Of a stretch of 48,679 bases of DNA, positions 17,697-24,871 are shown piece by piece. Within the stretch, counting starts at the first letter, position 1. Each line of letters begins with the position of its first letter. Under the pieces are notes generated by a model. That model worked only from the letters and a program-made list of their open reading frames with translations. It did not search any database and was not told where the DNA came from. Origin of the DNA: a bacterium BMS3Abin11 (GTDB lineage Bacteria > Pseudomonadota > Gammaproteobacteria > BMS3Bbin11); the NCBI GenBank assembly GCA_002897635.1, contig BDTD01000035.1:1-48679 (forward strand), written 5' to 3'. Position numbers and translations under genes: made by a program.

Positions 17697-18734
17697 TCAA
17701 CCCCACAGAACCCGCATCTTCTCTACGTTCGGCTCTCTGACAACCCCCTTCTCTGTCACTATCACATCAATCAGTGTAGCCGGGGTGATATCAAATACCG
17801 GGTTCCAGGCGCTGGCTTGTGCTGCAGCAATCCTCTGCTCACCCAGAGACAGAATCTCATCTGGATCACGGCTCTCTAGTGGGATATCCTGACCCGATGC
17901 CATGTTTGGATCACAGGTTGAGACCGGCGCTACAACCATGAATTTGACACCATAGTAGTGTGCGATAATAGCGAGATTACATGTGCCAATTTTGTTGGCG
18001 ACATCTCCATTTGCAGCAATTCGATCAGACCCCACTATGATCCACCCAATCCGGCCACTGGCCATCAGAGCCGAAGCTGCCCCTTCAACAACAAGGCTGG
18101 TCGGGATACCATCTTCGATTAATTCCCACGCCGTCAACCGGGCACCCTGCAACCAGGGGCGTGTTTCATCAGCGTAGACAGCATTGATACGCTTCTGCTG
18201 CCAGGCACTTCGAATAACCCCTAACGCGGTGCCATAACCACCCGTTGCTAAACTGCCGGCATTGCAGTGTGTAAGAACACCCTTGCCCGGTGTTATCAAT
18301 TCAGCGCCCAGCTCGCCCATCCGGTGATTGGCGGTAATATCTTCTTCGTGGATTGCTTTGGCTTCGTCAAGTAACAATGGTACCGGGTCACCATCTACTC
18401 GTTCAAATACTCCAAGCATACGGTTTATAGCCCAGACCAAATTGACTGCTGTTGGACGAGCATCCCGCAACAGCTCAAGATCTGACTGAATCGATGTCTG
18501 CCAGTTATCTGGCGATTCTTCATAACGTAATCGTGTCGCCATAGCGAAACCGTAGGCTGCGGTAATACCGATGGCAGGTGCTCCTCGAACCACCATGTCG
18601 CGAATGGCACTTACAGTTTGTTCTGTATTGGTAATATCGAGCCAGACTACTTTATCTGGTAGCCGCCGCTGGTCAAGTAACGATAGGCGGTCATTTTTCC
18701 ATTTTATAGCGGTGACTGAATCGTTGGGTTTCAT
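17697..18734 (-). CDS. mtnA: S-methyl-5-thioribose-1-phosphate isomerase
   Basis: A 345-residue enzyme of the methionine salvage pathway. Visible motifs: VRGAPAIGITAAYGFA, the catalytic cysteine in THCNAGSLATGGYGTALG, and the aspartate in GSDRIAANGDVANKIGT. The frame is open 40 codons further upstream, but AGGA lies 7 bases before ATG 18734 and the conserved sequence (KPNDSVTAIKW) begins there; the longer form would run into a dispersed repeat. It converges with adk. In Pseudomonas it is near mtaD, which lies 9 kb away here. Confidence 0.93.
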   Translation of the reverse strand: MKPNDSVTAIKWKNDRLSLLDQRRLPDKVVWLDITNTEQTVSAIRDMVVRGAPAIGITAAYGFAMATRLRYEESPDNWQTSIQSDLELLRDARPTAVNLVWAINRMLGVFERVDGDPVPLLLDEAKAIHEEDITANHRMGELGAELITPGKGVLTHCNAGSLATGGYGTALGVIRSAWQQKRINAVYADETRPWLQGARLTAWELIEDGIPTSLVVEGAASALMASGRIGWIIVGSDRIAANGDVANKIGTCNLAIIAHYYGVKFMVVAPVSTCDPNMASGQDIPLESRDPDEILSLGEQRIAAAQASAWNPVFDITPATLIDVIVTEKGVVREPNVEKMRVLWG

Positions 18735-18760
18735 TTTCATTTCCTGTTCTTTTCGATGTT

Positions 18761-19012
18761 TTTCTTGAATTAAACTGTGCTTTTCGCCCTTTATGGGCGA
18801 GTTCATTTCTTTTGTACGGACAAAAGAAACAGAACCAAAGAAAATCCGCCCCATGTGTTGGCCTTCGGCTGCTCTGCGCGCTTCAGCCTGAACCGGGCGC
18901 GGTGAACTCGGGCTACGCCCTCAGACATGCACCGCACTTATCCGGCCCAGACTTCCAGTGCTCGACAACCCAAAAGGGGATTGAGGTCAAAGTCAAAAGA
19001 AAGGATCAAACC
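18761..19012. repeat. Dispersed repeat, left inverted copy
   Basis: From TTTCTTGAAT through CGCCCTTTATGGGCGAG and the segments TTCCAGTGCTCGACAACCC and TCAAAGTCAAAAGAAAGGAT to the REP palindrome. The same blocks occur in reverse orientation at 23941-24208. It starts just upstream of mtnA and marks the left edge of the mobile island. Short open frames inside it are not considered genes. Confidence 0.8.
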
Positions 19013-19013
19013 C

Positions 19014-19078
19014 TGTAGGAGCGCCGTCTCGGCGCGATTCTTTACCAAAAACAATCGCGCCGAGACGGCGCTCCTACA
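19014..19078. repeat. REPIN-like perfect palindrome
   Basis: Arms 19014-19039 and 19053-19078 are 26-base perfect inverted copies (outer ends TGTAGGAGCGCC / GGCGCTCCTACA) around a 13-base loop. The GTAGG head is the REP hallmark recognised by RAYT proteins. Confidence 0.85.
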
Positions 19079-19256
19079 ATGTGCTTTTGATTCTGGTGTT
19101 GACCTTGAATCCCGTTCAGGCTTGCCGAGAAGCGCAGGTCGAGTCGGGGATGTCGGGATGTGCTGTCTGAGATAATTGGACTCCCCTCACCCTCACCGAG
19201 ATGAGCGTGAGGTAAGATGATTGCTCTCAAACAAATCAAATACGGAGTCCAATATC

Positions 19257-20294
19257 ATGAACAATACCATTGTCGGCGTTGATCTTTCAAAGAATTGCAT
19301 TCAAGTCTGCGTTGTTAAACAAAACAAGGTGATTTCAAACCGTGAAATGTCATCTGCTCAGTTTACGTCATGGTTAGCCAAAACGAAGCCTGCCACGGTT
19401 GTATTTGAAGCGTGCTCTACATCAAATTACTGGAAACAAACAGCCACCAGGCTCGGGCATGATGCACGACTCGTTTCGGCAAAACTCGTTGCTAAAATAC
19501 GGCAAAATCAGAAGACAGACAGAAATGATGCGCTGGCCGTTGTACAGGCCAGCCAGCTGGTTAACACCCGCTTCATCAATGGCAAGTCATTTTCACAACA
19601 GGAACTGCAATCGCTTATACGTATACGCGAGTTAGCGGTTAAACAAAAGGGGGCGCTGAAAAACCAGATTCAGGCGCTATTGCTTGAATTCAATATTCGG
19701 ACACACGCTCAGCGTGGTGGTTTAAATACGGTTATCCAACAGGTGTTGGAAGATGCAGAGAATGGGTTTTGTTTGCAGTTTCGCCAGGGCTTGCAGAGGG
19801 CATGGGGCTCTTATTTGTCCACTGTTGAGGCGATTGCAGACTATGACAAGTTACTGGGTTCTACTATGGAAGATCATGCTGACTGCGAAAAACTCACTGC
19901 ACTGGAAGGCGTTTCTGTTATTAATGCCGTTAACCTTTGTATCCAGCTAGGCTGTGGTGAGGCGGGGGTCTTCCGAACGAGTCAGGATGCCTCTGCCTGT
20001 ATTGGATTAACACCCATCCAGCATTCTACAGGGGGGAAAACCCGACTGGGATCTATTGGTAAAAAGGTGAAGAATAGCTCATTAAGGAGTTATTTAGTGA
20101 GTGGCGCAATGTCTGTCGTCAATCAAGTTTCTCGACGAGAGCCCAAAACAGCCAAAGAACAATGGCTGAAGCAACTCATTGAACGCCGGGGTAAGCGCTG
20201 CGCGGCGGTGGCTTTAGCCAATAAAACAGTAAGAACGGCTTTTGCCATGCTCACGCATGGCACCGAGTATCAACCTCAGCCGTTAAAGGGCTGA
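19257..20294 (+). CDS. IS1111-type IS110-family transposase
   Basis: A 345-residue DEDD transposase. The N-terminal RuvC-like part has D in IVGVDLSK, E in VVFEACSTSNYW and the pair in KTDRNDALA; the C-terminal Transposase_20 part has ALEGVSVINAVNL and IGLTPIQHSTGGKTRLGSIGK, with the catalytic serine expected in the following helical region. The start at 19257 (MNNTIVGVDLSK) follows CGGAG by nine bases; the frame opens 12 codons earlier. Intact, so possibly active. Family members use a structured non-coding RNA from the element to pick the target. Confidence 0.93.
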   Translation: MNNTIVGVDLSKNCIQVCVVKQNKVISNREMSSAQFTSWLAKTKPATVVFEACSTSNYWKQTATRLGHDARLVSAKLVAKIRQNQKTDRNDALAVVQASQLVNTRFINGKSFSQQELQSLIRIRELAVKQKGALKNQIQALLLEFNIRTHAQRGGLNTVIQQVLEDAENGFCLQFRQGLQRAWGSYLSTVEAIADYDKLLGSTMEDHADCEKLTALEGVSVINAVNLCIQLGCGEAGVFRTSQDASACIGLTPIQHSTGGKTRLGSIGKKVKNSSLRSYLVSGAMSVVNQVSRREPKTAKEQWLKQLIERRGKRCAAVALANKTVRTAFAMLTHGTEYQPQPLKG

Positions 20295-20495
20295 GAGGCC
20301 AATCACCAACAAAATGCTTTAAATACAGATGAAAAATCAACTGTTAGAGTCAGTGCTGCGCTCAGAGCATAAAGCTCGCGTCTGAGATTTGGCCAACAGT
20401 TCGCGTAAATATCAGAGAGCCTGGGTTAGCAACTCAAAGAGAGCTCGTACATAAGCACGCATTTATTCTATATTTTTATCATTTCGTTGTTGACA
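20295..20495 (+). ncRNA. Candidate bridge RNA (seekRNA) region of the IS1111-type element
   Basis: The ~200-base non-coding right end after the transposase stop. In the IS1111 group the bridge RNA is encoded here. Paired segments visible: AACTGTT (20339-20345) with AACAGTT (20395-20401) as an outer stem, enclosing CTCAGAGC...GCTCGCGTCTGAG. The boundaries of the RNA and its guide loops are not determined. Confidence 0.5.
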
Positions 20496-20583
20496 GAGGG
20501 GAGTCCACATAAGTCATTGTGGAATATTAGAAAAACTAAGACAAATTGGGTTAATTATGCGAATGAGCCTTGGTTAAAGTAAG

Positions 20584-20991
20584 TTACCCTTTGACTTGCA
20601 TCAAAAAAGAATCAACCAGTCCATCAACTGCAAATCCATTAACTTTTTGCCATTCCTTTATGGCTTCACGTGTGTTTCTACCCATTAATCCATCTTCTGT
20701 AAGTTTTGCAGAGATATTGGAATAATTGAGCAAAATTTGTGCTTTTTTCACTCGTGGGTCACCTATGCTGGCGGTGGAAGTGGCACTATCAGTGGAAGTA
20801 GACTGAGTGCTAGTTGGCTGAACATCGCTACTTCTGGTGTCACCATCCTGATCTTGACCAATTTTACTATGCTCGCTCTTTAATAGATCAAGAGCCATGA
20901 AAGGAGTGCTTGCTATATCTTTCGCAGTCTCACACCCGCCCAAACCCAAGCTTGCAGCCAAAATGAACACAAATAAAAAGCTCTTCATCAC
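20584..20991 (-). CDS. Small lipoprotein with peptidoglycan-binding-like domain
   Basis: A 135-residue protein. Residues 1-20 are a lipoprotein signal ending LGLGGC (lipobox, Cys 19), followed by a Ser/Thr/Gln-rich linker (TSTQSTSTDSATSTAS, about 60-78), then a C-terminal region IGDPRVKKAQILLNY...LTEDGLMGRNTREAIKEWQ that fits the PG_binding_1 fold. Likely anchored in the outer membrane and touching the cell wall. It sits between two mobile elements on the minus strand, alone in its orientation; it may be a passenger or a resident gene caught in the island. Exact role unknown. Confidence 0.75.
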   Translation of the reverse strand: MMKSFLFVFILAASLGLGGCETAKDIASTPFMALDLLKSEHSKIGQDQDGDTRSSDVQPTSTQSTSTDSATSTASIGDPRVKKAQILLNYSNISAKLTEDGLMGRNTREAIKEWQKVNGFAVDGLVDSFLMQVKG

Positions 20992-21285
20992 ATCCCCCTA
21001 TCCTATCTTTTATTTCTTCTATTGTTTGAAAAGGTCACCACTCGCAGCATCATTGTTAATGATAAATGGTGAAAAACTTAACAATACCATAAATTATTTG
21101 TGTAAATATATAAGCAATTACACGTAAAACAGTTCTCACTAATATAATCGCATTTCAAAAATGACTGCTTTGGGTCGAAGGACTAAACCGCTCTCGCGGT
21201 AATCCTCCATCAAGATAGTCGCAAAACGATAACATACAAGATTTCTGCTCACCCTCGGCAGACGGGTCTGATCTATGCTGAGCAA

Positions 21286-21302
21286 TGAGGCATGTTGCCT
21301 CA
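21286..21302 (+). repeat. Short hairpin before the fused recombinase gene
   Basis: TGAGGCA-TGT-TGCCTCA, a perfect 7-bp stem, 23 bases upstream of the start at 21325. A GCTGAG/CTCAGC pairing overlaps it. Another small hairpin (ACCGC-TCTC-GCGGT) lies near 21187. Either could be part of the left end of the IS91-like element. Confidence 0.45.
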
Positions 21303-21324
21303 GCTCATTCATAGGAGAAGACTC

Positions 21325-23421
21325 ATGACACAGATCAAAGAGCCCATTAGTCCCTTACGTCAACGCATGATTGAAGACATGTCGTTACGCAAACTCGCAC
21401 CCAAGACCCAATCCGGTTATATCCGGGTGGTTAAGAACTTCACCCATTACCTCGGCCGTCCGCCGGATACCGCAAGCGCAGAAGAGCTACGTCATTATCA
21501 GCTACATTTGGTGGAACGCGGTATCTCCAGTATATCGTTGAATGCCAGTATTACCGCACTGCGATTTTTCTTTGGCGTCACCCTGGATCACAGTGAACTG
21601 ACGGCAAAGATGAGCTCAGTACATGAACCGCGTAAGCTACCGGTAGTGCTGAGCCGTGAAGAAGCTGCACGGTTGATAGAATGTACCAGTAACGAGAAGT
21701 ACAAAGCCATGCTGACTGTTGCTTACGGTGCAGGTTTACGGGCCAGCGAAGTGGTGTCACTTAAGATCAATGATATTGACAGCACTCGCATGACCCTGCG
21801 TGTTGAACAGGGAAAAGGCCACAAGGATCGTTATGCGCTGCTTTCCCCCGTATTGCTTGAGCGCCTGCGTGACTGGTGGCGGGTAGCACACAGCAAGGGC
21901 AAGATGCTTGAGGGAGGATGGCTGTTCCCCGGGCAGAATATTGTGAACCCCATCGGTACCCGTCAACTCAATCGTGCTTGCCATGCAGCAGTCATTGCAG
22001 CAGAGATTGATAAGCGTGTATCGATGCATACACTGCGACACAGCTTTGCGACACATCTGCTGGAAGCCAAGGTGGACATTCGTGTGATTCAGGTGTTGCT
22101 CGGACATAAGAAGCTTGAGACCACCGCGCTGTATGCTCAGGTGGCAACGGGTATCTTGCGTGAAGTGATCAGTCCACTGGAGTCGTTGACACCGCCTGAC
22201 CAGGTGGCGAGCATGCCTCGCCCCACTTTAGAGGTAGCGGATATCTTCCGCACCCATGGTCCGGATTGGCGCACGCGACAGGCAGGCCACCTGAGTCTTG
22301 CTCAACTCCAGGTGATGTCGGCCATTGAACACTGCCGCAGTGCGGCGTTGGGTGGTCATGTGCTGCGTTGCAATGCCTGCGAGCAATCTCAGGTTGCTTA
22401 TAACTCCTGTCGTAACCGGCATTGCCCGAAGTGTCAGGCCAGTGCTGCCCATCGCTGGCTGGAAGCCCGTCAGGCAGACCTGCTGCCCGTCGATTATTAT
22501 CATCTGGTCTTTACCTTACCGGCACCGATCAGCGACATCGCCTACCAGAATAAATCGGTAATCTATACCATTCTGTTTAAGACGGCAGCAGAGACCCTGC
22601 TCGCGATTGCCGGGGATCCTAAGCACCTGGGTGCCCGTATTGGTCTCACCCTGGTGTTACACACCTGGGGATCGGCTATGACACATCATCCGCATGTGCA
22701 CGGTATTGTTCCAGGCGGTGGCCTGTCACCAGATGGTGAGCGCTGGGTTGCTTGCCGCCCCGGCTTCTTCCTGCCGGTACGTGTGCTCTCGAGGTTATTC
22801 CGACGACGCTTCCTTGAACAACTGATGGAAGCGCATCGCACGGACAAGCTACGATTCTTCGGTGAACATCGGGATCTGGCAGAGGCAAAAAGTTTTAGCA
22901 ACTGGCTCAAGCCCATGCAATGGGTTGAGTGGGTGGTCTATGCCAAGCGCCCCTTCGCTGGACCCGCTGCCGTGCTCGCCTATTTATCTCGCTATACTCA
23001 CCGGGTCGCTATTGCCAACAGTCGACTCCTCTCGATGGATGAACGGGGTGTTACCTTCAAGTGGAAGGATTATCGGCGCAAGGGGCAGAACCGGCACCAG
23101 TGTATGACGCTAACAAGTCATGAGTTTATGCGACGCTTCCTGCTGCATGTCCTGCCCGGTGGTTTCCACCGCATCCGCCACTATGGACTGGCCTCCAACA
23201 CGGGTCGTAAAAAATATCTGGCTCAAGCGAGAGAACTGCTGAGGTGTGAAGAACTCGATGCTTCTACTGATGCAGGAACAAACAGCGTTGAACCCACGGT
23301 CAGTGGTGATGCACCCACGACCTTTGTCTGTCCGGACTGTGGCGGCCCCATGGTGATTATTGAGGTCTTTGTGCCGGGGCAGTTACCGCGTGCTCCACCA
23401 ATGAGCGTGGGTGAATCATGA
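21325..23421 (+). CDS. Fused tyrosine recombinase and IS91-type HUH transposase
   Basis: A 698-residue single open frame. Residues about 5-300 are a complete tyrosine recombinase: SAM-like core-binding domain, then the catalytic R in GAGLRASEV, HTLRHSFATHLLE and LLGHKKLETTALYAQV with the terminal tyrosine. From about residue 297 (MPRPTLEVADIF) it continues as an IS91 transposase: zinc ribbon CNACEQSQ...CRNRHCPKCQ, the HUH motif HPHVHGIVPGG, and YLSRYTHRVAI with candidate catalytic tyrosines. A C-terminal CPDCGG knuckle follows. Start chosen at 21325, with AGGAG seven bases upstream. In related elements the two parts are usually separate genes; an internal ATG at 22213 in the same frame could still make the transposase alone. 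Confidence 0.88.
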   Translation: MTQIKEPISPLRQRMIEDMSLRKLAPKTQSGYIRVVKNFTHYLGRPPDTASAEELRHYQLHLVERGISSISLNASITALRFFFGVTLDHSELTAKMSSVHEPRKLPVVLSREEAARLIECTSNEKYKAMLTVAYGAGLRASEVVSLKINDIDSTRMTLRVEQGKGHKDRYALLSPVLLERLRDWWRVAHSKGKMLEGGWLFPGQNIVNPIGTRQLNRACHAAVIAAEIDKRVSMHTLRHSFATHLLEAKVDIRVIQVLLGHKKLETTALYAQVATGILREVISPLESLTPPDQVASMPRPTLEVADIFRTHGPDWRTRQAGHLSLAQLQVMSAIEHCRSAALGGHVLRCNACEQSQVAYNSCRNRHCPKCQASAAHRWLEARQADLLPVDYYHLVFTLPAPISDIAYQNKSVIYTILFKTAAETLLAIAGDPKHLGARIGLTLVLHTWGSAMTHHPHVHGIVPGGGLSPDGERWVACRPGFFLPVRVLSRLFRRRFLEQLMEAHRTDKLRFFGEHRDLAEAKSFSNWLKPMQWVEWVVYAKRPFAGPAAVLAYLSRYTHRVAIANSRLLSMDERGVTFKWKDYRRKGQNRHQCMTLTSHEFMRRFLLHVLPGGFHRIRHYGLASNTGRKKYLAQARELLRCEELDASTDAGTNSVEPTVSGDAPTTFVCPDCGGPMVIIEVFVPGQLPRAPPMSVGES

Positions 23422-23711
23422 TGACCCGCACAAGCAGTATGTCGCTAAATTATCGGCCTGGCCTGATAAGAGGAGAGTTATATCGAAGAGGAAAAGATCG
23501 GTGCATTTACTCGGAACCTGAAGGGCAAAAACGGCTTTATCATCAAGATATCATTCAACCGATGTTCATATATCCAACGATAAACGAGCACTTACTCGGC
23601 CGATGCCCGGAAACATCAAACCCAATCCCCATAGCACCGCACTCAACACTAGCAACCTTCTACACCTCCGCGGTTTCCTCCCTCGAGGCTTATAAGACGC
23701 CTGCCCGGTGA
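23418..23711 (+). CDS. Uncertain small ORF after the IS91-like transposase
   Basis: A 97-codon frame whose ATG overlaps the transposase stop (ATGA). The product (MMTRTSSMSLNYRPGLIRGE...) has no domain I recognise, no signal and low-complexity composition near the end. The region runs into the terminal hairpin of the element, so it may be non-coding IS end DNA rather than a gene. Confidence 0.25.
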   Translation: MMTRTSSMSLNYRPGLIRGELYRRGKDRCIYSEPEGQKRLYHQDIIQPMFIYPTINEHLLGRCPETSNPIPIAPHSTLATFYTSAVSSLEAYKTPAR

Positions 23712-23779
23712 GTCCGCGTAAGCTTACAGGTGAATGGCAGGGGCAGGCAACTTACAACCCTTAACGACAGCGGAGGTTC
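23699..23779 (+). repeat. Probable terminal hairpin (ori end) of the IS91-like element
   Basis: GCCTGCCC (23699-23706) and GGGCAGGC (23741-23748) form an 8-bp perfect stem enclosing the small palindrome GTAAGCTTAC. About 27 bases later GTTC occurs (23776-23779), the complement of GAAC, one of the two tetranucleotide targets of IS91. The element would then span roughly 21.17-23.78 kb; the left tip is not resolved. Confidence 0.4.
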
Positions 23780-23940
23780 AAGCTATTCATGGAAATGTCC
23801 GCTTAGAAGAAATTTAAACGGCCCGCCTATTGCACTGTTTTTGTCAGCCATGTCTCGATTGCGGTAGATAGAATTTGCGATAGGCAAAGGTTTCAATATC
23901 AGTTTTGACTCACAATCTCTTATTGGGTTGCCGAACACGG

Positions 23941-24208
23941 GTGAAAAACAATCGCGCCGGGACTGCGCTCCTACAGGGTTTGATCCTTTCTTTTGACTTT
24001 GACCTCACTTCCCCTTTTGGGTTGTCGAGCACTGGAAGCTTAGACCGGATAGCGTAGCGAGTTCACACCCCGCCAGCTCATCCGAGCATCGCAGGGAACC
24101 CGTAGGGCAAGCTTGTGGGTGCTCTTTCTTTTGGTTACTTTTCTTTGAGCAAGCAAGGTAAAAGTAACTCGCCCATAAAGGGCGAAAAACACGAATCAAT
24201 TCAAGAAA
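23941..24208. repeat. Dispersed repeat, right inverted copy, with a REP
   Basis: Reverse-oriented copy of the blocks at 18761-19039: a REP arm at 23950-23975 ending CTCCTACA, then ATCCTTTCTTTTGACTTTGA, GGGTTGTCGAGCACTGGAA, and CTCGCCCATAAAGGGCG. It includes TTTCTTTTGGTTACTTTTC, a sequence scattered in many gammaproteobacteria (from memory). It marks the right edge of the mobile island. A 64-codon open frame here is not considered a gene. Confidence 0.8.
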
Positions 24209-24256
24209 CCGAATAAAAAAATTTGCTCATACGTGCCCCAGCACAAAAATACCCCC

Positions 24257-24871
24257 CTACATCCCATTCCCAAACATATCATTCAATGTCACACCCGACT
24301 CCCTGACAGGCTTCAGTGCACCAGCATAAGCCAGCAGCACATCCAGCGTCCAGCTTATCCGTTCTCGGAAATATCCGTCAGCACCCTCGTTATTATCCGC
24401 AGGATTATCATTCAACACACTCTCAACATTACGAACAATAACGTGTTCCGGGATGTAGCAAATTCGGTTATTTTTATAACTGCTCATACGTAACTCTGCG
24501 ACTGGATATGAACCACCATCGGTTGATGATACGGTAACAATCATCGCGGGTTTATGACCCACATCGAAGCGACTCAGCATCAGGAAAAAGTTCTTTAATC
24601 CAGCAGGGACCTGGCCATGCCACTCTGGAGAAACGATAACCAGTCCATCACAGGACTGAAGTTGCTGGCGAATGGGATTTAAGCGTTCTTCCCAGGCTGG
24701 TTCTTTATCCCAAATACCCTCTTCCCAGAGAGGTAATGGATTATTTGCCAGAATATATATCCAGGTATCGCTACAGTGTTCTTTACCTGACAGTGCCTTC
24801 TCAATGAACCGAGAAACCTTTTCGCTTTGGGAATTGTTGCGGTGGCTACCGCTGATAATCGCAATCTTCAT
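24257..24871 (-). CDS. NADPH-dependent FMN reductase family protein
   Basis: A 204-residue flavodoxin-fold protein. It begins MKIAIISGSHRNNSQSEKV, the FMN phosphate-binding loop, and has VSPEWHGQVPAGLKNFFLML, the segment that contacts the flavin ring in this family. Probably a soluble flavin or quinone reductase; the substrate is not deducible. It lies 18 bases after the unknown 109-residue gene and ends the three-gene minus-strand group with the DUF971-MoaD fusion. Confidence 0.85.
   Translation of the reverse strand: MKIAIISGSHRNNSQSEKVSRFIEKALSGKEHCSDTWIYILANNPLPLWEEGIWDKEPAWEERLNPIRQQLQSCDGLVIVSPEWHGQVPAGLKNFFLMLSRFDVGHKPAMIVTVSSTDGGSYPVAELRMSSYKNNRICYIPEHVIVRNVESVLNDNPADNNEGADGYFRERISWTLDVLLAYAGALKPVRESGVTLNDMFGNGM

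Follow-up and report, generated by a model that had tools for sequence, protein, structure and literature searches.

Does a tyrosine recombinase joined in frame to a rolling-circle transposase represent an evolved single-chain enzyme, or does it reflect a mutation in one copy of a two-gene element? This question is raised by a locus of the gammaproteobacterium BMS3Abin11 (assembly GCA_002897635.1), which lies in a stretch of 48,679 nucleotides (contig BDTD01000035.1, positions 1 to 48,679) that was analysed as a whole and is called the window here.

Both halves of a known gene pair are intact in one reading frame

Translation shows that positions 21325-23421 of the plus strand are a single open frame of 698 codons with no internal stop, and a start at a further in-frame ATG, at 21292, would lengthen the N-terminus by 11 residues. 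Four Pfam domains were found along the frame (PF13495 at residues 11-88, PF00589 at 109-274, PF14319 at 307-398 and PF04986 at 440-628), with E-values from 3e-13 to 2.5e-65. The first two define the tyrosine recombinase part (residues 1-285, 21325-22179, plus strand), in which the catalytic set R139, K164, H235, R238, H261 and Y270 is intact; all of these residues are near-invariant among relatives. The other two define the IS91-type Y2 HUH transposase part (22213-23421, plus strand), which scores 421.8 bits with the NCBIfam model of the IS91 transposase (NF033538) against a cut-off of 125. Its HUH motif is HVH at residues 457-459 (22693-22701), followed by Y553 (22981) and Y557 (22993), so that the zinc-binding N-terminus and the Y2 HUH transposase of IS91-type elements are both present. 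Alignments of 116 recombinase and 117 transposase halves contain 38 and 52 columns, respectively, with a conservation of at least 95%, and the fused copy retains all 90 of these residues; judged by these residues, neither half of the fused frame is decayed. Each half is homologous over its full length to one member of a known gene pair, in the same order, so the fused frame is not a chance open frame. These results confirm, by translation, Pfam, NCBIfam and alignments, the uninterrupted 698-residue frame with recombinase residues followed by a zinc ribbon and an HUH motif that a sequence-only reading of this DNA had described. In the AlphaFold model, the recombinase and transposase domains are both modelled, confident packing between them is absent (pTM 0.46) and the linker (residues 289-300) has low confidence (pLDDT <50), and therefore no fixed arrangement of the two domains is predicted.

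The recombinase shares the R-K-HxxR-H-Y set with XerC, XerD, XerA and the integron integrase. It matches the NCBIfam models of the Xer proteins and the integron integrase with E-values of approximately 1e-47 to 1e-52, but the scores of 162-178 bits are below the curated cut-offs (220-335 bits), which indicates that it is none of XerA, XerC, XerD and the integron integrase. The pairing of the two genes is known and widespread, with 245 'IS91 - XerD' couples on record (PMC9208149), and the fused form is new, as a variant of this known pair. ISMno24 of Methylobacterium nodulans (plasmid pMNOD01) likewise has a tyrosine recombinase gene and, directly downstream, the gene of an IS91-type Y2 transposase in the same order and orientation, with approximately 59% protein identity to the window pair over both genes. 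ISMno24 and the IS91-XerD couples have two genes with a stop between them, whereas the window has one frame; the window element is thus a one-frame variant that descends from, and works like, the ISMno24-like two-gene group. IS91 itself resembles the window element in its HUH/Y2 transposase, whose two tyrosines are four residues apart, in a hairpin close to the right end and in the lack of visible terminal inverted repeats; it transposes by rolling circle and is described in the cited paper without a tyrosine recombinase partner (PMC5714925).

A sense codon occupies the position of the recombinase stop codon

Codon-level comparison of the junctions placed a CAG codon (22201-22203, plus strand) exactly where the nearest relatives have the stop codon of the recombinase gene, which is TGA in L006 and L011, TAG in L013 and TAA in L030. 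In these four relatives the stop is the seventh codon after a conserved PL(E/D), the CAG of the window is in the same place, and an ATG lies 12 nt downstream of this codon in the window as well as in L006 and L013. Because the stop codons of the nearest relatives align with CAG, one stop-loss step explains the fusion. No near-identical copy was found that would directly show the earlier state of the CAG codon.

The in-frame ATG at 22213 corresponds to the start codon of the separate transposase gene in relatives, and a Shine-Dalgarno-like AGGTGG (22202-22207, plus strand), which may be active as a ribosome-binding site, lies 5 nt upstream of it. Since both have been retained, ATG 22213 probably still gives rise to the transposase as a separate protein. 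The possibility of such a second protein had been raised by the sequence-only reading, and the retained ribosome-binding site makes it plausible. In relatives, the recombinase stop is most often 5-22 nt upstream of the transposase start, and this close spacing suggests termination-reinitiation coupling.

The two halves are split in nearly all relatives

Two samples of relatives were compared. The first comprised the best 80 relatives in the genome collection, ranked by full-length match, and the second was obtained from several hundred genomes of Pseudomonadota with the transposase half alone as the query, which gave 37 distinct junctions. None of the 80 best full-length matches is fused, and all 80 have a stop between the halves. 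As ranking by full length favors uninterrupted frames, fused relatives would have ranked at the top of this sample. With the transposase half as the query, a single fused junction was found among the 37 distinct ones, and the other 36 are split. Six plasmid records that list only one of the genes (H2, H29, H40, H130, H136 and H137) were considered as hidden fusions, but the listed gene spans its own half only, and none of the six carries a fusion in its annotation. The split pairs of the two samples bear out the expectation that the recombinase and transposase are normally adjacent genes, which are joined here.

The second fusion (G252:C6:50785-51852, L162/L212) is a 666-codon frame in a distant relative and is independent of the window fusion. 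Compared to split paralogues in the same genome that are approximately 97-98% identical, it lacks one base from a G5 run. Two unrelated one-step fusions in approximately 120 distinct junctions look like accidents between close neighbors.

Within its clade of split pairs, the window copy stands alone as a single tip. It is also the only complete copy in its own genome, where the other copy is a remnant on contig C11, and the element was not found in seven other genomes of the same genus and family. The remnant (L190, G000:C11:112466-115628) is from a related element and retains both ends at 87% and 76% identity, as well as 66 recombinase codons at 92%. It is split by an insertion of approximately 1.25 kb, and the remaining coding part has been replaced.

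Origin of the fusion

Since nearly all of the approximately 120 junctions are split, a stop-loss mutation, and not a lineage-level design, is the best interpretation of the fusion. The sequence-only reading is partly supported. The joined frame stands, but by the standard which that reading set for itself the fusion counts as a chance mutation or a sequencing error, as the stop or frame change of relatives is missing only in the window copy and in one unrelated, distant copy. We consider it probable that the fusion is a stop-loss accident in one copy of a two-gene IS91-type element that has been tolerated, and not an evolved single-chain enzyme. Such rolling-circle elements carry the tyrosine recombinase gene immediately before that of the Y2 HUH transposase. 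The recombinase stop was most likely lost by a single T-to-C change (TAG to CAG) at 22201-22203, and with its loss the full 698-residue chain is encoded, so that free recombinase cannot be produced from the fused copy. The fusion could also have arisen by a one-base indel in an ancestor whose two genes were out of frame; a TGA at 22197-22199, which precedes the ATG by 16 nt as it does in L110, is consistent with this origin. The fused frame is most likely without consequence.

The fused chain might instead be a functional single-chain recombinase-transposase, in which the recombinase is tethered to a rolling-circle nuclease and which is kept by selection. The uninterrupted frame, the near-invariant residues that are all kept in both halves, the flexible linker predicted by AlphaFold, the presence of the element ends and hairpins, and an independent second fusion in a distant relative (L162/L212) are in its favor. 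However, the window copy is a singleton in its own genome and family, the fusion is absent from all other relatives examined in its clade, and the loss of one base from a G5 run in L162/L212 is what an accident or error would give, which leaves a functional chain improbable. The corresponding mechanism, in which the HUH part would make a circle by rolling-circle replication and the tethered recombinase part would integrate it at a dyad-symmetric site, so that transposition would be combined with site-specific integration, is equally doubtful. A sequencing or assembly error at 22201 is still less likely. The assembly is a draft of 38 contigs and relatives have a stop at 22201-22203, but the error would have to be a substitution rather than a homopolymer indel, and the assembly has a completeness of 99.9% and little contamination. 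The least credible explanation is programmed readthrough of the stop throughout the family, with the window copy merely without the stop. Nearly all of the best 80 full-length matches do have the same frame and a single stop between the halves, but the sample obtained with the transposase half alone shows a mixture of frames (12 same, 20 shifted by +1 and 4 by +2), also among relatives that are 60-70% identical. The excess of same-frame junctions is thus an ascertainment effect of full-length ranking, nothing points to readthrough across the family, and we rejected this explanation.

Ends and surroundings of the element

According to its conserved ends, the element extends from 21180 to 23765 (approximately 2.6 kb). 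The left end GGACTAAACCGCTCTCGCGGTAA (21180-21202, plus strand), which is conserved in relatives, contains a short hairpin, ACCGC-TCTC-GCGGT, and the left boundary of two 100% identical copies (L197 and L245) is at GGACTAAACC. There is a right-end hairpin with the arms GCCTGCCC and GGGCAGGC (23699-23748, plus strand), which is imperfect in the window; in relatives it reaches up to 15 bp and shows compensatory changes (GTTAGACGCCTGCCC/GGGCAGGCATCTAAC, GTAGGACGCCTGCCC/GGGCAGGCGTCCTAC and GTTCAACACCTGCCC/GGGCAGGTGTCGAAC). The right terminus ACAACCCTTAAC (23754-23765, plus strand) is conserved in relatives and agrees with the boundaries of near-identical copies. Terminal inverted repeats are absent, as in IS91-type elements, since the left end GGACTAAACCGC and this terminus are not inverted copies of each other. 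By analogy with the mechanism of IS91 (PMC5714925), a hairpin followed by ACAACCCTTAAC is the structure expected where an IS91-type element is nicked, and the transposase would cut next to the conserved hairpin at the right end and peel a strand off to a circle. At the right end of the L018 match, two element ends form a head-to-tail tandem, CCCTTAAC-GAAC-GGACTAAACC, in which GAAC is all that separates them. IS91-type elements are characterized by one-ended transposition through a single-stranded circle, and of the present observations only this tandem fits a circle or multimer junction.

An IS110-type transposase gene (19221-20294; PF01548 and PF02371) lies approximately 900 bp upstream of the element, and the region of the sister genome G001 that corresponds to the surroundings of this gene is without the IS91-type element. 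As a precise empty site this locus was rejected, since it lacks the element but its flanks are too different. An interspersed repeat of approximately 170-200 bp is found in the window at about 24050-24250 and at 18761-19043; it has no Rfam match, the query of the surroundings has 39 matches in the same genome, and many are found in sister genomes. Rfam gave no match within 18600-24400.

Insertion sites carry a dyad motif

IS91, IS801 and IS1294 insert next to GAAC or CAAG. This rule does not describe the elements studied here, in which the right end is immediately followed by GACA, AACA, AGAA, GATT, TATA and others. The flanks of the gamma/beta clade are instead non-random, with G-19, C-17, G+8 and C+10 as the most conserved positions, and form a dyad motif approximately 35 bp wide, as compared to the four-base target of IS91; we therefore call the element IS91-type by its transposase and not by its target rule. 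The left half of the motif in the window is AATGACTGCT (21160-21169, plus strand; left flank -22 to -13), which fits the consensus AANGNCTGCT conserved in 19-22 sites, and the right half AGCGGAGGTT (23769-23778, plus strand; right flank +4 to +13) mostly fits the consensus AGCNGNCNTT. A GNC at -8 to -6 accompanies the motif in the window (21160-21176), L197, L237, L245, L246 and others. Viewed separately, 13 plasmid loci have G-19 in 12 of 13, C-17 in 13 of 13, and G+8 and C+10 each in 5 of 6; this set is only partly independent, as five of its loci are already among the 19-22 sites that define the motif.

The left and right flanks show 48% complementarity in one register, compared to 13-29% in every other register; a free-register score of flank pairing gave no signal. 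Compensatory pairing of the flanks in a hairpin was rejected, since permuted partners pair nearly as well (46% vs 48%), which argues for a consensus dyad of the protein-binding type and not a hairpin. L197 and L245 are identical over 2541 bp and lie on two plasmids of one strain in different flanks. Both sets of flanks share the left motif and G+8, while C+10 is missing in L197; since identical copies with different flanks share the motif, it belongs to the target and not to the element. The motif was also considered as an abundant host repeat and rejected, as its strict 24-base form is no commoner than a reversed control in ten genomes. A literature search, with most subscription journals outside it, found no paper on this target motif or on the function of the recombinase in IS91 elements.

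Dyad-symmetric sites are what tyrosine recombinases recognize. For this reason, and by analogy, we think that the recombinase takes part in integration or target choice; it would probably help to choose or complete integration at sites of the form AANGNCTGCT ... AGCNGNCNTT. Insertion sites linked to tyrosine recombinase dyads have a precedent in the IS1202-type elements, which are reported to insert beside dif/pdif sites; these belong to a different element family, and the target there is the Xer sites of the host (PMC10132070).

Should the fused chain be active, two unrelated DNA-cutting enzymes would be tethered to each other in nature, and the role of the recombinase partner in these elements could readily be probed with it. 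Even if the fusion is accidental, the dyad target motif makes the role of this partner testable, as it predicts an insertion site that is recognized by the recombinase and not by the transposase. The target motif may matter more than the fusion itself.
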